A stretch of 64,000 nucleotides of DNA. It comes from Methanobacteriota archaeon (lineage in GTDB: Archaea; Thermoplasmatota; Poseidoniia; Poseidoniales; Thalassarchaeaceae). The stretch is taken from contig JABIGF010000019.1 of the NCBI GenBank assembly GCA_018650285.1, forward strand, positions 1 through 64,000. Reading direction: 5' to 3'. Within the stretch, counting starts at the first letter, position 1, and each line of letters starts with the position of its first letter. Shown piece by piece: positions 6,980 through 36,440 of this stretch. The notes beneath the pieces were generated by a model that saw only the letters and a program-made list of their open reading frames with translations, did no database searches and had not been told where the DNA came from. A program made the position numbers and the translations under genes.

Positions 6980-7252
6980 TTAACGATGAAATACAGCAAT
7001 ATTGCCACGCATCACAACTAGTGTAGAGTTGGTCTTTTCAGCCAACATCTCCCATAATTCTCGCTTATCATCTGAATCTTCAGCAAGACCACGGTTTAGT
7101 TTCGCTTTGACAAAAATACGTGACTTCAACTGAGAATCTAATTCGTCAACGACTGACTCAGTCATCCCTGATTTACCGACCCTCATAGTCACCTCTATCG
7201 AAGGGTCAAGAGCCCTTTTTTTCAATCTCTTATCTACGTCTTTCATTTTCAT
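6980..7252 (-). CDS. CRM-domain (YhbY-like) RNA-binding protein
   Basis: A 90-aa protein that is essentially one CRM domain. It has basic helix KRLKKRALDPS, the strand VTMRVGKSGMTESVVDEL, and RIFVKAKLNRGLAED with a GxxG-type loop, ending in TLVVMRGNIAVFHR. CRM proteins bind structured RNA and are associated with large-subunit ribosome assembly in bacteria and archaea. Its ATG overlaps the stop codon of the RNase P gene upstream (ATGA), with GGGGGA just before it, so the two are translationally coupled. The context with RNase P and adenylate kinase supports an RNA-metabolism role. Confidence 0.9.
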   Translation of the reverse strand: MKMKDVDKRLKKRALDPSIEVTMRVGKSGMTESVVDELDSQLKSRIFVKAKLNRGLAEDSDDKRELWEMLAEKTNSTLVVMRGNIAVFHR

Positions 7253-7584
7253 TCCCCCTTAGGAAAGTTTGGCCCACGGCGAATCATTATTCCGCAATCT
7301 AAACAGGTAATTCGCCAGACACCTTGGCGCACTCTAACACGTGCGTTGACCCCAGGTCTAAGTGCTGTTTCGCACGACCTGCATACCCATGAGCGGCGCC
7401 CATTTGGGAGACCCAACCGGTGCCTTTGTGATAGTTTGAGTATATCTTTTGCCGCTGAATTAACGGTCTTGTTAGAATGCTTCCATGGCTCTTTCAACAC
7501 TGTTTCAAGATGGCTTCTAGTTGCTATCGCTCTAGAGCGGCGGCGCTTGGCATTTCGTGCTTGACCACGTCGCCCTCTTGCCAT
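7249..7584 (-). CDS. rnp4: RNase P protein component 4 (Rpp21/Rpr2 family)
   Basis: 111 aa. A very basic N-terminal helix region (RGRRGQARNAKRRRSRAIA) is followed by the helix LSQRHRLGLPNGRRSWVCRSC, then a zinc ribbon formed by VCRSC and ITCLDCG, with the basic segment RVRVRQGVWR between. Length, fold order and the four cysteines match archaeal Rnp4 (Rpp21), the subunit that pairs with Rnp1 (Rpp29) on the RNase P RNA specificity domain during tRNA 5' maturation. It lies 14 bases downstream of adk and overlaps the CRM gene by four bases. The RNase P RNA gene was not found in the window. Confidence 0.92.
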   Translation of the reverse strand: MARGRRGQARNAKRRRSRAIATRSHLETVLKEPWKHSNKTVNSAAKDILKLSQRHRLGLPNGRRSWVCRSCETALRPGVNARVRVRQGVWRITCLDCGIMIRRGPNFPKGE

Positions 7585-7598
7585 TGTTTCACCTGAAA

Positions 7599-8219
7599 TT
7601 AAGATGTGATGACTTCGGCAATTTCTGCCGCCACATCACTCATCGCTTGGTTGCCATTGACTGTTGCCAAAACACCTTTTTGAGAATACCACTTTGCTAG
7701 TGGTGAAGTCTGATTATGATACGCTGAAAGACGAGTTCGGACAGCCTCTTCGTTGTCATCCTTTCTTTGTATAAGACGGCCTGCAATCTCAGAGGGTGCT
7801 GGCTTGAATGTGATGTGATAGATGTCTCCCGTATCGGGATCCATTCTCCTACCAACTATACGCTCAACAATAGCATCATCTGGAACTTCAATTGAAATTA
7901 CAAGTGATACTTCGGCTATTTCTGCTAAGGCTTCTGCTTGCGGGATTGTACGCGGGAATCCATCGAATAGTACACCATCCATTGCATCTGACTGAGTCAT
8001 TCGCTCTTCAATCAATCCTACTATGACATTGTCAGGTACAAGTTCACCCGCTTCCATGTACTTTTTTGCTTCTATTCCAAGGCGAGTACCGGCAGCTAAT
8101 GCCGCTCTCAACATGTCGCCTGTTGAAACTTGGGGTTTTCCTGTCGCTGCAACAATTGCTTCTGCTTGAGTTCCTTTGCCCGCCCCGGGGGGCCCGAACA
8201 GTACAATGGACTGACTCAT
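7599..8219 (-). CDS. adk: Adenylate kinase
   Basis: 206 aa from the ATG at 8219. The P-loop is IVLFGPPGAGKGTQ, followed by the AMP-binding segment STGDMLRAALAAGTRLG, the FDGFPRT motif, and the LID region beginning GRRMDPDTGDIYHITF, without zinc-binding cysteines. RLSAYHNQTSPL completes the C-terminal ATP-site region. The enzyme interconverts ATP + AMP and 2 ADP in the cytoplasm. This is the bacterial/eukaryotic-type Adk rather than the short trimeric archaeal AdkA. The longer frame (8 extra residues) lacks support because the family begins right at the P-loop strand. First gene of an adk-rnp4-CRM operon. Confidence 0.96.
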   Translation of the reverse strand: MSQSIVLFGPPGAGKGTQAEAIVAATGKPQVSTGDMLRAALAAGTRLGIEAKKYMEAGELVPDNVIVGLIEERMTQSDAMDGVLFDGFPRTIPQAEALAEIAEVSLVISIEVPDDAIVERIVGRRMDPDTGDIYHITFKPAPSEIAGRLIQRKDDNEEAVRTRLSAYHNQTSPLAKWYSQKGVLATVNGNQAMSDVAAEIAEVITS

Positions 8220-29887: not shown

Positions 29888-29939
29888 CTGTGCGCCATAA
29901 TTGAATGATTCTAAATGCCTCGGAGGTTGCCAAGCAGAT

Positions 29940-32177
29940 GTGAGCAGGCTAGCACTACCCACCGCACTAGCAATTTTGCTGCTCTTCGCAGCCATCCCAA
30001 TGGCCAATGAAGAGCCATTTCAACTTGCAGAAAATAGTCAGCCACAACAATCTTCCACCCATTCTCTAGGCGAAGGGGAGACAAATTGGTCGAATACGGT
30101 CATGACTCGCCAGAGTTCATTTTGGGTTGCTATTGATTGCCCGTCAGAAACCGCCTGCGAAGAATTGAATTTGACAGTGACTGATTCGGCAGGCACAGAA
30201 TACACAGAAACAGGGCGTTTTCACCTTGAACTTACTGGAAACCTCTCCTTTGGAGAAACCACTGTTCGCATCACTCGCCTAGGAAATACCGCACAAGATT
30301 TAGTCATTCAACAGATATTCTTTGATACATACTCGGGTGAGTTTGGTGATGCCCCCTCACAAATACCTAATCCTGGAGAAAACAGTTCTAATTGGCCCCT
30401 TGCTGAACTTGATGGTTGCAATGGAGTAGTCACTTGTGGACTGATTGACCGAACGATGATTGACCCCGCAGCAGTCTGGTTGAACGGCAGTTTGGATTCC
30501 CTCGAAGATGCGGATACATTCAAACTCAATAGTAGTTCAAATGAATTGATTGAATTGGAAGTTGTTGCTGTTTCCACCGATATTACAATTGAAGTCTGGA
30601 ATCTTACAGATGAAGATCTCTTCCTTATGGGGCAGTGGCAATTTATGGCTGGTAGCAGTTTTGTACCAACTCGGCTAATTCTTGAACAAACAAATGGAGA
30701 AACTTGGATTTCAATCAACAACGCCGGAGGCGTTGGTCTTTATTCGCTAAGATTGGCAAACCATTCTCAATACTATGAACTACAAAACACAACGAGTGAT
30801 TTTGATTTACCAACCCATCCATATTTTGGATATAGTGGGAATATGACACTTTCTGGCCACATCATTACAGGCGACTTAGGTGATGCTCTTACCATCCAAA
30901 TGGGGTCGCGTAGTACTGTGACGATTGAATGGTATTTCAGCGATGATGCTGAAATCCAAATCCTTGCAAGAGATGGGAATTGGCAGACAATTCACACACT
31001 AACCAATAGAACTGGAAGTATTGATTTCACCGCCCCTGAAAATTCTGACAGAGGCGGTTTTGTAATCACGAATGCTAGCGGGCCCCTAATTTGGTCTGTC
31101 AAAATAATTGAGTGGGGGCCGTGGGATGGAGGATGGGTTGGAGATGCACTTGACCAGCCACCAAATGGCATGGCTGATGCTAACGATATGGCAGCCTTCA
31201 CAGGGGCTAGCGGCAGTATTTCAGGCGAGATTGGTGGAGATGATATTCGCGATGTGTATCTCATTGAGAGAGAAGTTGGTTTCCCCTATCGCTCCCTGCT
31301 AAGTGCAACTATTGAAGGAGACCCTGGCACCTGTACATTGAAACTTGTTCAACTCAACACAACGGCATACAGTTCGTGGAGTACTGTGTCATGGAATCTT
31401 ACAGATATGACTGGCCAACAAGCAAGCACCACACTTGATTTACCACACGGAACCCACCTATTAATTATAGAATCGAGAACTACAACTGAGGTCGGTTATT
31501 CAGTAAACTGGGCTTGGTTGACACCTGAAGGAGCAGAGCCAATTGAAGAAGAATGGGTTGATTATTCTGATGGGATGAAAGGGTTTTACATCTTGATTGG
31601 AATCATTCTATTATTGCCAATGATGGTAGCAATATACTGGAAATTCAATGAGGATGACGAAATTGAAATTGAAGTACATGAAAAGAAACGACTTGAACGC
31701 TTGCGTCAGAGATTGATAAGTGCAGACCCGAATGATTCAATGGACCCAAATGCCTTACTGCACGCATTGGAATCGCTAGCAGACACCGATTGGGAGGCAT
31801 TGACTAAACAATGGGGTGAACCAATGACTAGACACACCACCGAATCTTTAGATCTAGCCATTTGGCAACTTGCCGAATTAGATGGTGCAAAATCAGTCAC
31901 GGTAGGCCTAACTGTTGGCGATGAGAATTGGACACTAGCGGGAATTAGATTCCAAGCAATACAAGGAAGTGAATGGGAAATTATTGCTGTAACACCAGAG
32001 AGTATGTTTGATGGTGATGAAGTATTCTTAGGTGACTTAAAATCACAAAGCAGCCAATTCTACCGCATTGACCTAGCTGGTAAAGCGGAGGGCTTTGATT
32101 TAATTTTATCAGGACTTGTCGGAGGAAACCCTGTTGCAGCAGTCCCTACAAAAGCCGCTTTACTAGAAGAAGAATAA
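29940..32177 (+). CDS. Signal-peptide surface protein with one membrane helix and cytoplasmic tail
   Basis: About 745 aa if read from the GTG at 29940, which gives a standard signal peptide (SRLALPTALAILLLFAAIPM). An ATG at 29901 would add 13 residues. The ectodomain of about 520 residues is beta-rich. It contains repeated PPC-like modules (LDSLEDADTFKLNSSSNELI, LSGHIITGDLGDALTIQM and GEIGGDDIRDVYLIE), similar to bacterial pre-peptidase C-terminal domains. A single transmembrane helix (GFYILIGIILLLPMMVAIYW, about 545-565) precedes a cytoplasmic region of about 180 residues with an acidic, helical character. No protease motif is seen. The start lies back-to-back with arcS, so promoters must overlap the coding ends. 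Confidence 0.78.
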   Translation: MSRLALPTALAILLLFAAIPMANEEPFQLAENSQPQQSSTHSLGEGETNWSNTVMTRQSSFWVAIDCPSETACEELNLTVTDSAGTEYTETGRFHLELTGNLSFGETTVRITRLGNTAQDLVIQQIFFDTYSGEFGDAPSQIPNPGENSSNWPLAELDGCNGVVTCGLIDRTMIDPAAVWLNGSLDSLEDADTFKLNSSSNELIELEVVAVSTDITIEVWNLTDEDLFLMGQWQFMAGSSFVPTRLILEQTNGETWISINNAGGVGLYSLRLANHSQYYELQNTTSDFDLPTHPYFGYSGNMTLSGHIITGDLGDALTIQMGSRSTVTIEWYFSDDAEIQILARDGNWQTIHTLTNRTGSIDFTAPENSDRGGFVITNASGPLIWSVKIIEWGPWDGGWVGDALDQPPNGMADANDMAAFTGASGSISGEIGGDDIRDVYLIEREVGFPYRSLLSATIEGDPGTCTLKLVQLNTTAYSSWSTVSWNLTDMTGQQASTTLDLPHGTHLLIIESRTTTEVGYSVNWAWLTPEGAEPIEEEWVDYSDGMKGFYILIGIILLLPMMVAIYWKFNEDDEIEIEVHEKKRLERLRQRLISADPNDSMDPNALLHALESLADTDWEALTKQWGEPMTRHTTESLDLAIWQLAELDGAKSVTVGLTVGDENWTLAGIRFQAIQGSEWEIIAVTPESMFDGDEVFLGDLKSQSSQFYRIDLAGKAEGFDLILSGLVGGNPVAAVPTKAALLEEE

Positions 32178-32251: not shown

Positions 32252-32430
32252 TATGAAAGATAAGGCACCAATATAATAACGGCTGCCGAGTATACAAATA
32301 ATAGGATTTATTAAAAAATTAGAATATAACAAATAAAAAAGTTAAAATTTGTTAAAAACCGGTTTTGAATCGTAACATTTTTATACCCCCGCCACATCTG
32401 ACCCTATATAGCAATATTATGGTGATTATT
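32252..32430 (+). promoter_or_regulatory. AT-rich non-coding region with palindrome and TATA-like box
   Basis: No ORF is credible here. A perfect 12-base palindrome AAAACCGGTTTT occupies 32355-32366. A TATA-like TTTTTATA lies at 32378-32385, about 45-50 bases before the ATG of the small ORF at 32431, which has GGTG seven bases upstream. A second AT-rich element (CTATATAG, from 32404) follows. The layout (palindrome just upstream of TATA) is what an archaeal promoter with an operator would look like. That reading is inference; no start site is known. The sequence is visibly richer in A+T than the flanking genes. Confidence 0.4.
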
Positions 32431-32511
32431 ATGTGCCAAGAAAAATTCATCCGGGGGGGTCGTCTTCGCAGACGAGTTCGATTTAATGAATGTACATTTG
32501 AAGCCTTGTAA
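32431..32511 (+). CDS. Possible 26-aa Arg-rich micro-ORF over a hairpin
   Basis: ATG to TAA gives the peptide MCQEKFIRGGRLRRRVRFNE followed by CTFEAL. Codons 8-17 include CGG, CGT, CGC, AGA, CGA and CGA: six arginines using five different codons. The same DNA contains a perfect 6-bp stem with a 4-base loop (TCGTCT-TCGC-AGACGA, 32460-32475). It is preceded by a TATA-like box and a weak GGTG and lies about 70 bases before the first tRNA-Arg gene. It could be a chance ORF, or a leader peptide. No homologue is known to me. Confidence 0.3.
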   Translation: MCQEKFIRGGRLRRRVRFNECTFEAL

Positions 32512-32579
32512 TTATTCGGCGCCTCTCATTCTATTAATTAGGCTGAGAAGCGTCTTTAGACAAAATTTGCCGGCACCTT

Positions 32580-32651
32580 GGAGGTGTGGTGTAATGGATA
32601 GCATCGGGGGTTTCGAACCCCTGGATCCCGGTTCAATCCCGGGCACCTTCG
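32580..32651 (+). tRNA. tRNA-Arg (anticodon TCG, reads CGA)
   Basis: A complete cloverleaf can be drawn. The acceptor GGAGGTG pairs with CACCTTC (one G-T). The D stem GTGT/GCAT is weak, with two wobbles. The anticodon stem GGGGG/CCCCT encloses loop TTTCGAA with anticodon TCG at 32613-32615. The T arm is CCCGG-TTCAATC-CCGGG. The discriminator is G and CCA is not encoded. The gene is bracketed by the palindrome GCCGGC at 32569-32574 and 32651-32656; these could pair and extend the acceptor stem in the precursor. Confidence 0.88.
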
Positions 32652-32671
32652 CCGGCATTAATTCGCTATAC

Positions 32672-32747
32672 GGGTGTGTGACTGTAGCGGATATCACTTG
32701 GGACTGCGACTCCCTCGACCTGGGTTCAATTCCCAGCACGCCCACCA
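32672..32747 (+). tRNA. tRNA-Arg-like gene (anticodon GCG) with abnormal D arm, CCA encoded
   Basis: The acceptor GGGTGTG pairs with CACGCCC (one G-T). The T arm CTGGG-TTCAATT-CCCAG is perfect. The anticodon loop CTGCGAC has GCG at 32706-32708, but the first anticodon-stem pair is T-T. In the canonical register the D stem ACTG/TCAC does not pair. A shifted GTGA/TCAC stem would pair perfectly but uses the last acceptor base and removes the two linker bases. A73 and CCA follow directly in the DNA. It may be a diverged, element-borne or decaying tRNA. It starts 20 bases after the first tRNA-Arg. Confidence 0.7.
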
Positions 32748-32797
32748 AATCAAAACAAAATAAAAAGGAGAAACAAAACAAAAAAGGAAGTAATAAT

Positions 32798-33250
32798 ATG
32801 ATGAAAAATATAAGAAAAATTGCGATAAAAACAATCGGTAGAATATCGGATAACGGTCCGCCAATCGTTTCAATCAACGGCATCCTTGGATTCAGGGAGT
32901 ACACCAGATACGAGAATTCATGGTTCTACATAGGTAGGTCGCCCATTAGTAGATGCATTGTCATTATGCAGGACGACTGGGTTGAGATTCACAATGTGTG
33001 CGTAAATGAGCCTGAAGATAGAAGCAAGGGTCACGGCACTGCTATGATTGCAGATATTAGACAAGCTTTCCCAAACCATCACATCTGGGTCAACACGGCC
33101 GAATGCTCGAGAGCGTTCTGGGAAAAGATGGTCGATAGGGGTCACATTGACTCCATCGAAAATGAATACTGGTGGCCTTGCTGGGATACAACCTGCACTA
33201 TTTGTCACCCGACAAGAACAACAGGAAAAAGGAGGTGTGGCTCATGGTGA
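32798..33250 (+). CDS. GNAT-family N-acetyltransferase-like protein with C-terminal Cys cluster
   Basis: 150 aa from ATG ATG at 32798, with GGAAG upstream. The GNAT acetyl-CoA loop is VNEPEDRSKGHGTAMIADI (RxxGxG/A type, about residues 70-88), and AECSRAFWEKMVDRGH matches the late GNAT helix-strand. The C-terminus WPCWDTTCTICHPTR plus a later KRRC adds four cysteines, possibly a metal site, which is unusual for GNATs. All 13 Arg codons are AGA or AGG. The substrate is unknown. First gene of the island operon; its end overlaps the next start by 7 bases. Confidence 0.72.
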   Translation: MMKNIRKIAIKTIGRISDNGPPIVSINGILGFREYTRYENSWFYIGRSPISRCIVIMQDDWVEIHNVCVNEPEDRSKGHGTAMIADIRQAFPNHHIWVNTAECSRAFWEKMVDRGHIDSIENEYWWPCWDTTCTICHPTRTTGKRRCGSW

Positions 33251-33978
33251 GACCAAACGACAAAAGTATCATCCCCCCAGATGATATGATAGACCACAAC
33301 AATGCGAACTTCTCACAGATTGAGAACATCATGACCATCTTTGTTGCCTACAATCAAGTCAACATCCAACAAGGAACACCTTGGGATAACTGGCCTGAAT
33401 GGGAACTTTGCTTGACAGCGATAAATCCAGATATCCACTTTGAAGTTGAGGAGGATTCGAATGAAATCAAAGCCGTAAGAGAGCACTGGTTGGCTGTGAT
33501 GCAGTTCATACACGACTCAGAGCACATCGAGTTCGATGGCTATGCCATCACTGTAAATGGTGTCCATGGGAACACTTTCAACTTCGTTATCTGCTTTCAA
33601 ACCGAAATGTGGGGTGACCCTATAATGACAAAAGATGGTGAAGAGGAATGTTTCAGTGGCATTGGATTGGTCCCCATGCCTTTCCCGCATATCATGCCTA
33701 GCGAAATCGGGCATAGCCTTGGGCCCCTTTGGGTGTGCCCAGAACACGTACCAAAGTACGGTGGTGAGCAATTCTATTGTTCAGAGGGTTCAATTTGCAT
33801 TAGCAAGGATATTGATGGGGCATTTCCATTAGCACTATACTCCCTACTGAATCTCTGTATTGATGATACTAAAATATGGGCAGATGCTTGTGCAAGAGAC
33901 CTTGAGTTACATGATAATTTGCACAGGATGAATGAAAAATGGCCCGGCGGAATACCGGAAGATTGGGAGTACCAATGA
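33244..33978 (+). CDS. Island protein of unknown function, 244 aa
   Basis: It starts at the ATG at 33244, preceded by a strong GGAGGTG six bases away; a longer frame upstream overlaps the GNAT gene and is rejected. The protein is soluble, acidic, and rich in Trp, His, Cys, Met and Pro. It has the segment GIGLVPMPFPHIMPSEIGHS and a cysteine set (WVCPEHVPKYGGEQFYCSEG). No signal peptide, membrane helix or known motif was recognised. All Arg codons seen are AGA or AGG. The C-terminus ends in an acidic-aromatic WPGGIPEDWEYQ. It is transcribed with the neighbours, judging by spacing. Confidence 0.65.
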   Translation: MVRPNDKSIIPPDDMIDHNNANFSQIENIMTIFVAYNQVNIQQGTPWDNWPEWELCLTAINPDIHFEVEEDSNEIKAVREHWLAVMQFIHDSEHIEFDGYAITVNGVHGNTFNFVICFQTEMWGDPIMTKDGEEECFSGIGLVPMPFPHIMPSEIGHSLGPLWVCPEHVPKYGGEQFYCSEGSICISKDIDGAFPLALYSLLNLCIDDTKIWADACARDLELHDNLHRMNEKWPGGIPEDWEYQ

Positions 33979-33987
33979 GGTGAAAAA

Positions 33988-34188
33988 ATGTTAGAAAAAG
34001 AACTGAAAGAACTGATAATAGCAATGAAAATGTTGATTGATGCGAAAACTGCAAACTTGGCAGTTGAAACTGAATTCGACAAAATCAGACTAAAAGATTT
34101 TGTCAAGCACGCAGAGAGACAAGGACTCAATATGAATGAAAATGACAACCCTTCGTGGCCAGATGATTTTGAGGAGGACTGGGAATGA
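33988..34188 (+). CDS. Small acidic helical island protein, 66 aa
   Basis: The ATG at 33988 follows GAGGTGAAAAA, nine bases after the previous stop. Residues 1-45 are predicted helical (LEKELKELIIAMKMLIDAK), then the chain becomes acidic with a Trp-rich end (NPSWPDDFEEDWE). Its acidic-aromatic C-terminus resembles that of the preceding 244-aa protein. Its stop overlaps the next ATG (ATGA), implying translational coupling to the peptidase-like gene. It could be an inhibitor, substrate or chaperone of that peptidase; this rests on position only. Confidence 0.6.
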   Translation: MLEKELKELIIAMKMLIDAKTANLAVETEFDKIRLKDFVKHAERQGLNMNENDNPSWPDDFEEDWE

Positions 34189-34730
34189 GCCTTCTTTGGA
34201 AGCCAAACGCGAACGCACCTTTGTGGGATGCTGCAGATGAGGATGAGTCCGACGGGCCATTCTTTGACTACCTTGAGTTGGCGCACATCAGGCAATCAGG
34301 TCCAACCTGTGTGCCAACTACATTGGCGATGTTGGCTAGAGCCACGGGAGCAAATGTAGAGCCTGAGGATTTCATGCCTCTCATCAATTCACAATCACCA
34401 CATTCGTGGTCGAAAGCACTAGCACCCTACGGATTGCAATTGGCGTACTGTAACAACGATTTGAGGAGACTTGAGTACTATATTGACGAGCTCACCGATT
34501 ACGATGACTTGTTCTTGCTGTGCTTCTACTCTCAAGACCCACCTTATGAGCCAGATGAGAATGGGAAATTGTGTACTGCACACATAGTGACACTGCACAA
34601 AGATAGAATCATTGATACAGCCAAATCGGACCAATATGCAAATGGCAAGGCGAGCGATTATCACAGGCTCGCAAGACAGACGAAGAGAATCTTCAGAGTG
34701 GTTCCGAAGGGACATGCGAGGTGTGTGTGA
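34185..34730 (+). CDS. C39/papain-like cysteine peptidase
   Basis: 181 aa. The segment HIRQSGPTCVPTTLAMLARA (about 34-53) has the papain-clan layout with oxyanion Gln37 and nucleophile Cys42. CTAHIVTLHKDRIIDTAKSD (about 129-149) supplies the His (about 132) and the following Asp (about 144). Order, spacing and the helix after Cys match C39/C39_2-like peptidases. No ABC transporter domain or signal peptide is attached, so it is a free cytoplasmic enzyme. GGAGGA precedes its ATG, which overlaps the stop of the 66-aa gene. Substrate unknown; the small neighbouring proteins are candidates. A protease-fold enzyme with a different reaction (for example transglutaminase) is possible. Confidence 0.72.
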   Translation: MSLLWKPNANAPLWDAADEDESDGPFFDYLELAHIRQSGPTCVPTTLAMLARATGANVEPEDFMPLINSQSPHSWSKALAPYGLQLAYCNNDLRRLEYYIDELTDYDDLFLLCFYSQDPPYEPDENGKLCTAHIVTLHKDRIIDTAKSDQYANGKASDYHRLARQTKRIFRVVPKGHARCV

Positions 34731-36070
34731 TGCTATGGAAGGGCAATCACTTATTCTGCAACGTACCGTTGCCGAAAGCCGACGATAGGCCTCTCATTGT
34801 GTCGCACCCTGGTGCCCACATGAACTACCTCGCATCGTGGAACGTGATGGTCGAACACGGCGAGCCATTCGTGCTCGTTTGTGATGACCTTGGACCCGCG
34901 TACCCCGACGGATGGTGGGCACAGCACAGCAAAGATGGGATGGAATACTTCGCAAGACTCCAAAACCCACAAGGGGTTGGGCAAGCCTACAGAAATCCCG
35001 ACCTATCATTTCAGAATTTGCTGGTGCACAGAGGGTTGGATGCCAACAAAGGAATGGAAGATTTCCCCTTAATTGACATCATGTATGTCGATTTCATCGA
35101 AATCTTCCTGAAGTACAATGGTGAAGTTGACTGGAGACCAACTTTCATGGCAGCTGCTCCCAAAATGGTGGAGAAGGTCAGAGATGGCGGTGTGCTCATC
35201 ATCGACAGGAAAAACGTGCACGAGGATTACGACCAATGGTTGGAATTCCCTCAAGGCGAATTCGAGGTCTCGCCTGGGATCACGTTGGAACATGTCGGCA
35301 AAGGTGAGTGGCTCATACTCGACATGCCATTGAATGGAGGCGGCAGAGATGAAATCCATGCTGAAGTCTTCAGGGTGTCCAACAGCAACCCCCCAGGAAA
35401 TCCCGATGATTTCCTAGCGACTCTAATGAAAGAGAGGAGATTAGCCCCTAAAGATTTGGAGGGTTTCAAGGGAACCTTACCTACAAGATGGCCAGGGCAC
35501 CCTACATTGGATGATTACACTGAGAGACTATTCAATCATTATGATCACCCTGACGCCTTCGATAGGCCCGATTATCCAGAACCGCTGGAGAGTTCTTGGA
35601 AGAGTGAAAAGTACGACGAATGGCTACAGTGGTTGATTAACCACCCAGAGTCGTTGAGACCCATTGAGAGAAACGAGAGAATCATGCAGATGGGCAGCAC
35701 AACAGTGAGGTTGGTCCATGGCACCATTTTGGCACATCTCGATTGGTTGCAAACCAAAGACGCGAGTCTCGTGGTGAGAGATGCTCTAAGGGAGAGTTGT
35801 CTTGCAGAGAATCTCTTCTTGGGGAAAAATGCGGCCAATTTACAGCCGTTCATGAGATGGAAGAAACCCATCAGACACATGAGGTGGTCTGGACCCGATG
35901 CCACACCGAATTTGACCAGAGAGTTACTGAAACTTTCGAAGAGTAACGTGATGGCCACCATCTCGCATGGTATTGCAACTTTGGAAGAACTTGAAGCCGC
36001 CCTTACCGACTACGATGGCGAGGTTGAGGAATTGGTGATTTTCCACTTGGATGAGGAGGACTACAGATGA
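34730..36070 (+). CDS. Large island protein of unknown function, possible Rossmann/methyltransferase-like segment
   Basis: 446 aa from the ATG at 34730, which overlaps the stop of the peptidase gene (TGATG). The middle segment LIDIMYVDFIEIFLKYNG followed by PKMVEKVRDGGVLIIDRKN (about 115-160) resembles motifs IV-V of class I methyltransferases, but no GxGxG SAM loop is evident at the N-terminus. The second half is helical with TLPTRWPGHPTLDDYTERLF and ends acidic (LVIFHLDEEDYR). All Arg codons, about 30, are AGA or AGG. Function cannot be assigned; the methyltransferase-like reading is weak. Confidence 0.6.
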   Translation: MLWKGNHLFCNVPLPKADDRPLIVSHPGAHMNYLASWNVMVEHGEPFVLVCDDLGPAYPDGWWAQHSKDGMEYFARLQNPQGVGQAYRNPDLSFQNLLVHRGLDANKGMEDFPLIDIMYVDFIEIFLKYNGEVDWRPTFMAAAPKMVEKVRDGGVLIIDRKNVHEDYDQWLEFPQGEFEVSPGITLEHVGKGEWLILDMPLNGGGRDEIHAEVFRVSNSNPPGNPDDFLATLMKERRLAPKDLEGFKGTLPTRWPGHPTLDDYTERLFNHYDHPDAFDRPDYPEPLESSWKSEKYDEWLQWLINHPESLRPIERNERIMQMGSTTVRLVHGTILAHLDWLQTKDASLVVRDALRESCLAENLFLGKNAANLQPFMRWKKPIRHMRWSGPDATPNLTRELLKLSKSNVMATISHGIATLEELEAALTDYDGEVEELVIFHLDEEDYR

Positions 36071-36360
36071 GTGACAGCAAGTATCTGGATGCTTATCTCA
36101 AATTGAATGAAGAGCACGGTCAGAACCAGTGGCCCTCAAAGTTGAGGTTGATGGGTGTTGAGAAGTACGATCCAATGTATACCTCAAGTCATCTGTTTGT
36201 CATTTACTTCCCTGAGAAAAAACATGAGGATTTCATCGCTTGGAGACATCACAGATTACAAAATGGCTGGCAAGATGACATCTATTGGATGAGTGAAGCC
36301 GAATTCAAATATCATTGGCCGATGCTTGCAGGCTTGTTTACGTGGGAGTGGGTGGAATAA
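36067..36360 (+). CDS. Small island protein of unknown function, 97 aa
   Basis: ATGA overlap with the preceding gene and GAGGAGGA just upstream indicate coupled translation. The protein is Trp/Tyr/His-rich (SSHLFVIYFPEKKHEDFIAW, WQDDIYWMSEAEFKYHW) and ends LFTWEWVE, again an acidic-aromatic C-terminus. No family recognised. Arg codons are AGA/AGG only. Confidence 0.6.
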   Translation: MSDSKYLDAYLKLNEEHGQNQWPSKLRLMGVEKYDPMYTSSHLFVIYFPEKKHEDFIAWRHHRLQNGWQDDIYWMSEAEFKYHWPMLAGLFTWEWVE

Positions 36361-36440
36361 TGAGTGACTGCAAACAGTGCGGTAATGCGTGGGATACACT
36401 ACGCGAAGCCATAACCAAGGATTTTGGGAATTGGAGATGA
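36360..36440 (+). CDS. Possible 26-aa CxxC micro-protein at the end of the island operon
   Basis: The ATG at 36360 overlaps the TAA of the 97-aa gene (TAATG). The peptide is MSDCKQCGNAWDTLREAITK followed by DFGNWR. It carries one CxxC, half a zinc knuckle, so a dimer could bind a metal. It begins MSD like its neighbour. It uses one CGC codon, unlike the larger island genes. Coupled position is the only support, so it may be a chance ORF. Confidence 0.35.
   Translation: MSDCKQCGNAWDTLREAITKDFGNWR

Follow-up and report, generated by a model that had tools for sequence, protein, structure and literature searches.

We analysed a 64,000-nucleotide stretch of DNA from a Methanobacteriota archaeon of the Poseidoniales (family Thalassarchaeaceae; contig JABIGF010000019.1 of assembly GCA_018650285.1, which totals 2.1 Mb in 28 contigs), hereafter the window, whose positions serve as coordinates. 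It contains a compact cassette in which a short leader open reading frame (ORF) and a pair of tRNA-Arg genes precede six tightly packed plus-strand genes, A to F (table 1), between a host gene (29901-32177) and a minus-strand dnaJ (from 36524). The initial annotation of this region had listed seven plus-strand ORFs with characteristic overlaps, which are present as it described, and had proposed to look for the same gene order in marine metagenomes and archaeal virus genomes. The full order, namely leader ORF, tRNA-Arg pair, (GNAT)-B-C-peptidase-E-(F), recurs in 65 related loci, all of them in Poseidoniales (marine Group II, MG-II), which we found by alignment of the peptidase D in genome contigs and which make 66 with the window. 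Since both order and sequences are kept in other genomes, A to F can be regarded as true genes, whereas the seventh ORF (26 codons, 36360-36440, 3' of F), which contains a CGC codon, is probably not part of the unit. That annotation mentioned neither the leader ORF and the two tRNA-Arg genes nor the complete lack of CGN codons, all described below.

Table 1. Features of the cassette in the window (CGN, CGN codons over all arginine codons; loci, loci carrying the gene)
Feature	Position	Strand	Remarks
TATA-like box (TTTATA)	32380-32385	+	51 nucleotides 5' of leader start; putative promoter
Leader ORF MCQEKFIRGGRLRRRVRFNECTFEAL, 26 codons	32431-32511	+	Five in-frame CGN codons: CGG CGT CGC CGA CGA
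RNA hairpin within leader CGN run	32461-32474	+	Sole terminator-like match of the region
Second hairpin, in the gap between leader and tRNA 1, then TTT	32518-32554	+	From folding; possible terminator
Cassette tRNA-Arg 1, anticodon UCG	32580-32653	+	ARAGORN; RF00005 53.7 bits
Cassette tRNA-Arg 2, anticodon GCG, encoded CCA	32672-32747	+	RF00005 41.4 bits
A, 150 amino acids, GNAT-like, C-terminal C..C..CH motif	32798-33250	+	CGN 0/13; 24/66 loci
B, 244 amino acids, no known family, conserved C-terminal tail	33244-33978	+	CGN 0/4; 62/66 loci
C, 66 amino acids, Phe and Trp invariant among last residues	33988-34188	+	CGN 0/2; 46/66 loci
D, 181 amino acids, C39/papain-like cysteine peptidase (predicted)	34185-34730	+	CGN 0/10
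E, 446 amino acids, class I S-adenosylmethionine (SAM)-methyltransferase-like fold (weak match)	34730-36070	+	CGN 0/25; 56/66 loci
F, 97 amino acids, last gene of CGN-free unit	36067-36360	+	CGN 0/3; 13/66 loci

None of the 57 arginine codons of A to F in the window belongs to the CGN box, against 460 of 699 (66%) in 21 host ORFs (p ~3e-27). The same avoidance holds across the six cassette families from 64 loci (56,373 codons), in which CGN accounts for 16 of 2,279 arginine codons (0.7%), as compared with 71% in neighbouring host genes. Other codons of the cassettes deviate by less than about 2^0.75 and NCG codons are slightly enriched, so that CpG avoidance, low GC and general codon bias are excluded as causes. 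Indeed, the dinucleotide CG never occurs at codon positions 1-2 of the window cassette, whereas it occurs 45 times at positions 2-3 and 84 times across codon junctions; since it is absent only at positions 1-2, the avoidance acts on the codon, in frame. The GC content of D at third codon positions follows that of the host, from ~0.22 to ~0.78, and therefore no donor signature is left. Two D homologues without tRNAs (L089 and L092) serve as a natural control and use CGN freely (11/14 and 7/11 arginine codons).

At least one tRNA-Arg gene, and usually a tandem pair, lies upstream of the related genes on the same strand, at 0.4-3.3 kb, in 61 of the 66 loci; three of the five exceptions begin inside the cassette at a contig edge, and only L089 and L092 are truly devoid of tRNAs. 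Both tRNAs of the window cassette pass the tRNA covariance model RF00005, the second with the lowest score in the genome, and homologues of the second are recognised by ARAGORN. The first tRNA carries the anticodon UCG in 51 loci and ACG in 8, and the second carries GCG. Because UCG reads CGA/CGG and GCG reads CGC/CGU, the pair covers the whole CGN box. The cloverleaf is 99.5% paired among homologues of the first tRNA (9 pairs with double changes) and 93.9% paired among those of the second (12 such pairs); 58/59 and 44/45 of them, respectively, retain A20, an identity base for arginine, C35 is provided by the anticodons, and position N73 of the first tRNA is a G in most cases. Judging from cloverleaf and identity bases, both would be functional tRNA-Arg, predicted to be charged with arginine. 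Further Arg UCG and GCG tRNA genes lie elsewhere in the window genome, which rules out the pair as the host's only CGN readers, and a complete MG-II genome likewise has its own GCG tRNA and an interrupted UCG gene (31780-31877); as the host genome thus holds its own Arg UCG and GCG tRNAs, those of the cassette are extra copies. Apart from these loci, a tRNA-Arg(UCG) with U73 and an encoded CCA stands beside a tRNA-Cys near a contig end (G000:C6:461-615; L141, L146), a tandem that is possibly another tRNA-carrying element.

All 59 loci (59/59) in which the first tRNA was located have, upstream of it, a short ORF that contains two or more CGN codons and often follows a ribosome-binding sequence. 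Taken together, these leaders contain 216 CGN codons in frame, against 29 and 23 in the other two frames, mostly among their last 14 codons, as well as 65 AGR codons, many of which are codon 2 inside a hairpin. Leader peptides from different groups are unrelated and have only these codons in common, as can be seen in ...LKRTLRHRS, ...WKRRR, ...YRYRRYFRFHPIR, ...RDCNRCQSQFRWVR and ...LRRRVRSFELN. A TATA-like box precedes the leader ATG by 41-52 nucleotides in 23/59 loci, and hairpins that are conserved within groups overlap the leader CGN run or lie between the leader and the first tRNA. The leader has the makings of an attenuator-type short ORF, rich in the sensed codons and in frame, on which a stalling effect is predicted.

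The related loci, one of which lies on the 2.06-Mb MG-II chromosome CM001443, span 35-63% GC, and their flanking host genes differ between groups. Of 96 Poseidoniaceae genomes with a completeness of at least 80%, 39 have D, as do 10 of the 148 genomes from the family of the window. When the 96 Poseidoniaceae genomes were searched with the first tRNA, 43 strong matches were obtained, 37 of them with D; D occurs without this tRNA in two genomes, and the two are found together in 37 of the 39 D-bearing genomes (Fisher p 7e-18). Among the six tRNA loci without D, four stop at a contig edge (three of them with CGN-free cassette genes) and two, L191 and L192, are variants, found through the tRNA alone and blind to D, leader and codon usage. 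L191 comprises the first tRNA, A, a 382-amino-acid protein (CGN 0/14) and a distant homologue of E (0/20), L192 is truncated within a relative of that 382-amino-acid protein, for which no clear kinship to B was detected, and both variants have CGN-free genes and CGN-bearing leaders (MTTSAYNKKFLRRKIA and MSYWFCDNSLRRKMRK, respectively). D was accordingly rejected as the constant core, given that both variants lack it and keep the tRNA, L191 also keeping A and an E homologue. Searches of IMG/VR returned no homologues of the peptidase, B, E or the tRNA, and all 65 homologous loci are on cellular Poseidoniales contigs, so that a virus origin was rejected and the virus takeover once envisaged for this region is unsupported.

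Of the cassette proteins, D is a credible papain-like peptidase that looks active in sequence and model. In an alignment of 47 homologues, Gln37, Cys42 and His133 never vary and Asp144 hardly does, which bears out the Gln-Cys-His-Asp order pointed out in the initial annotation, and its AlphaFold2 model (mean predicted local distance difference test score, pLDDT, 90.6) matches C39/papain-like peptidases, with E 1.2e-4 and template modelling (TM) scores of 0.50/0.63 against the ComA peptidase domain. D scores below the curated Pfam C39 cut-off (14.1 vs 24 bits for the window protein; E 0.016 for the best member), and, whereas it has the fold and the Gln-Cys-His-Asp set in common with C39 peptidases such as ComA and PCAT1, it differs from them in standing alone, with 14-17% identity and no ATP-binding cassette (ABC) transporter. 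The peptidase homologues L089 and L092 stand without a cassette and may have been co-opted; L089 has a Tyr at the catalytic Asp. The model of E (pLDDT 85.9) weakly resembles a class I SAM methyltransferase: the nearest solved folds are mostly tRNA methyltransferases, by weak match, including the Rossmann methyltransferase-like MnmC, MnmM and TrmB (Foldseek best E ~5e-3, TM ~0.23/0.46, the higher value being on the target at best), from which E differs in having no detectable sequence homology. As for A, which the initial annotation called GNAT-like, an RxxGxG motif is conserved, but its Pfam GNAT score (E 0.045, 14.5 vs 20.7 bits) falls under the family cut-off.

More generally, A, B, C and F have no family match at cut-off in Pfam, NCBIfam or PADLOC, PADLOC gave 0 matches of A to F to described defence families, and no modification enzyme, aminoacyl-tRNA ligase or transporter was recognisable by profile searches in the conserved unit. 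For B, a ubiquitin-conjugating (E2-like) fold guessed by eye was unsupported by Pfam or PDB profiles, and matches to UvrD_C_2 (E 0.002, 2/42 members) and Rpo13 (E 0.005) look like chance. The acidic-aromatic C-terminal tails previously reported for several products are conserved across homologues of B and C, but not of F. The tails of B (33940-33975) and C (34153-34185) share an aromatic-acidic motif (WP...DWEYQ / WPDDFEEDWE), by which D or E might recognise them. In the cassette of the MG-II chromosome (L107, CM001443), gene B is split over two frames (7038-7753), through a frameshift or an assembly error.

Some loci carry further genes in or beside the cassette. E is replaced after D by a gene of 216/217 amino acids with normal CGN usage in L050 and L052 (11/17 and 8/16), and these cassettes, with a CGN-using gene in the place of E, look partly replaced or newly mixed. 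In L051, an ORF of 179 amino acids with an HExxH-like motif (SprT-like by eye) lies between ileS and the tRNA pair (L012:4339-4878, reversed orientation) and has 0/11 CGN codons despite preceding the tRNAs. A GIY-YIG/T5orf172-like family (by eye) with normal CGN usage often adjoins the cassette, downstream in L064, L070, L071, L080, L084, L088, L091 and L099, and upstream in L114.

On the basis of these sequence features, we propose that the cassette is a sensor-and-rescue operon for the arginine CGN box, an account that we hold with moderate confidence as a whole and with high confidence for its sensor-plus-immunity core. A promoter would fire just 5' of the leader and, as long as CGN-decoding tRNA-Arg is plentiful, the leader would be translated fast, the downstream RNA would fold and the operon would stay mostly off. 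If CGN tRNAs were lost, whether cleaved, modified or uncharged, ribosomes would stall at the leader CGN codons, the hairpins would rearrange and expression would run on into the tRNA-Arg pair and A to F. Because A to F contain no CGN codon, they could be translated while CGN decoding is down; the tRNA pair would restore this decoding, and peptidase D, methyltransferase-like E, the GNAT protein A and the small or adaptor-like B, C and F would probably either target the attacker or shield the newly made tRNAs. The attacker itself would most likely be a nuclease or toxin directed at tRNA-Arg and produced by a virus or competitor. The patchy presence of the cassette fits defence or rescue rather than housekeeping, and the cassette is best read as an accessory system for rescue or defence. 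The accessory module proposed at the outset is retained, its peptidase looking active, with defence as the likeliest of the classes then considered.

Several points weigh against this proposal. To our knowledge, attenuation by leader peptides has yet to be established in archaea. Covariation in the leader hairpins is slight, a terminator scan of the window was not above chance (1 found, 0.9 expected), and per-locus shuffle tests of the leaders are mostly weak, underpowered and sometimes mis-assigned, the strength being carried by the pooled frame test. With ACG in place of UCG in eight loci and the second tRNA seemingly lost in about a dozen, the pair does not cover the whole CGN box in every locus. 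The related loci are not independent and most cassettes come from metagenome-assembled genomes, although several unrelated leader sequences and the range of 35-63% GC argue against one inherited accident. Finally, the roles of the proteins and the nature of the attacker are inferred from evidence that is all sequence-based.

The cassette might instead be a weapon with codon-coded self-immunity, one of its proteins (for instance GNAT A, by acetylation of Arg-tRNA, or else D or E, by action on tRNA or arginyl-tRNA synthetase) disabling the host's CGN-decoding tRNA-Arg to halt virus growth. CGN avoidance would then let the operon survive its own attack, the leader would be an autoregulatory loop sensing the operon's own effect, and resistant cassette tRNAs would be the antidote ending the shutdown, immunity lying in synonymous codon choice. 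GNAT toxins that acetylate charged tRNAs exist, the presence of the cassette is patchy as in toxin-antitoxin or defence systems, and a single element would account for CGN-free genes, leader and antidote tRNAs. We consider this unlikely, however: no nuclease, GNAT-toxin or defence family was recognised in family and PADLOC searches, and A is missing from about 40/66 loci and D from both variants, so that, A and D not being universal, no constant toxin other than E stands out.

The arginine-rich leader also calls to mind an ordinary arginine-starvation attenuator of the kind that precedes amino-acid operons, and in Salmonella two Arg codons allow orf34, the leader of speF, to sense arginine (PMC6386406). 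Yet starvation would block AGA/AGG too, when the operon is full of AGR and stripped of CGN only, and the unit contains no arginine biosynthesis or transport gene; since AGR codons are kept, starvation fits poorly, and we regard it as very unlikely. Were the extra tRNAs poisonous, charged with another amino acid and mistranslating CGN, the operon would avoid CGN for accuracy, which would suit both the avoidance and the tandem tRNAs; this too seems very improbable, because A20 is almost always kept (see above), N73 of the first tRNA is mostly G, and poisoning alone can hardly account for a CGN-packed leader. The peptide modification and processing suggested by the initial annotation could draw on the resemblance of D to C39 leader peptidases and on the acidic-aromatic tails shared by B and C, but D has no ABC transporter as C39 exporters do, profile searches of the conserved unit brought up no family of modification enzymes, and the strongest signals, namely tRNAs, leader and codon avoidance, point to tRNA-Arg and translation and would be left unexplained, which makes peptide maturation highly improbable. 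That the genes are foreign and retain a donor's AGA/AGG-biased usage, as their accessory nature and varied sites might suggest, is almost certainly wrong, given that remaining codons and third-position GC match the host, that the bias extends over 64 loci of 35-63% GC, that the leader of the same element is CGN-rich and that homologues without tRNAs lose the bias.

The sensor-and-rescue operon would have counterparts, part by part, in known systems. Like leader-peptide attenuators (trp, his and orf34-speF; PMC6386406), it has a short leader ORF with one amino acid's codons in frame, hairpins nearby and an operon after; it differs from them in being archaeal and specific for a codon box (CGN, not AGR), in heading tRNA genes and accessory proteins rather than metabolism, and in that the operon avoids the sensed codons. 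Phages carry tRNAs that counter tRNA-targeting defences (PMC11555353, PMC10264068), and these phage tRNAs resemble those of the cassette as replacements that would restore decoding after tRNA attack; by contrast, the cassette is cell-borne, with a codon-rich leader, CGN-free proteins and no relatives in the viral contigs of IMG/VR. Among tRNA-cleaving defences, PrrC and the anticodon nucleases RloC and PARIS AriB exemplify the isoacceptor-specific tRNA attack that would be the signal or effect here (PMC2610378, PMC12409363), whereas PADLOC found no homologous nuclease in the cassette. Our survey of the literature, which covered open-access papers, found no described system joining a codon-box sensor, codon-free effectors and matching tRNAs.

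If our proposal is true, the cassette would be a circuit for stress or immunity that relies on synonymous codons throughout, for its sensor as well as for its immunity and repair, and would provide an isoacceptor-group-specific leader-peptide sensor in archaea. Other genomes, and other codon boxes, can be searched for its signature, which consists of a codon-free operon, a codon-rich leader and matching tRNAs. The proposal would also predict that tRNA-Arg(CGN) is destroyed by some as yet unknown agent in the ocean, and several new protein families of the Poseidoniales, which are abundant, would gain roles that can be tested.

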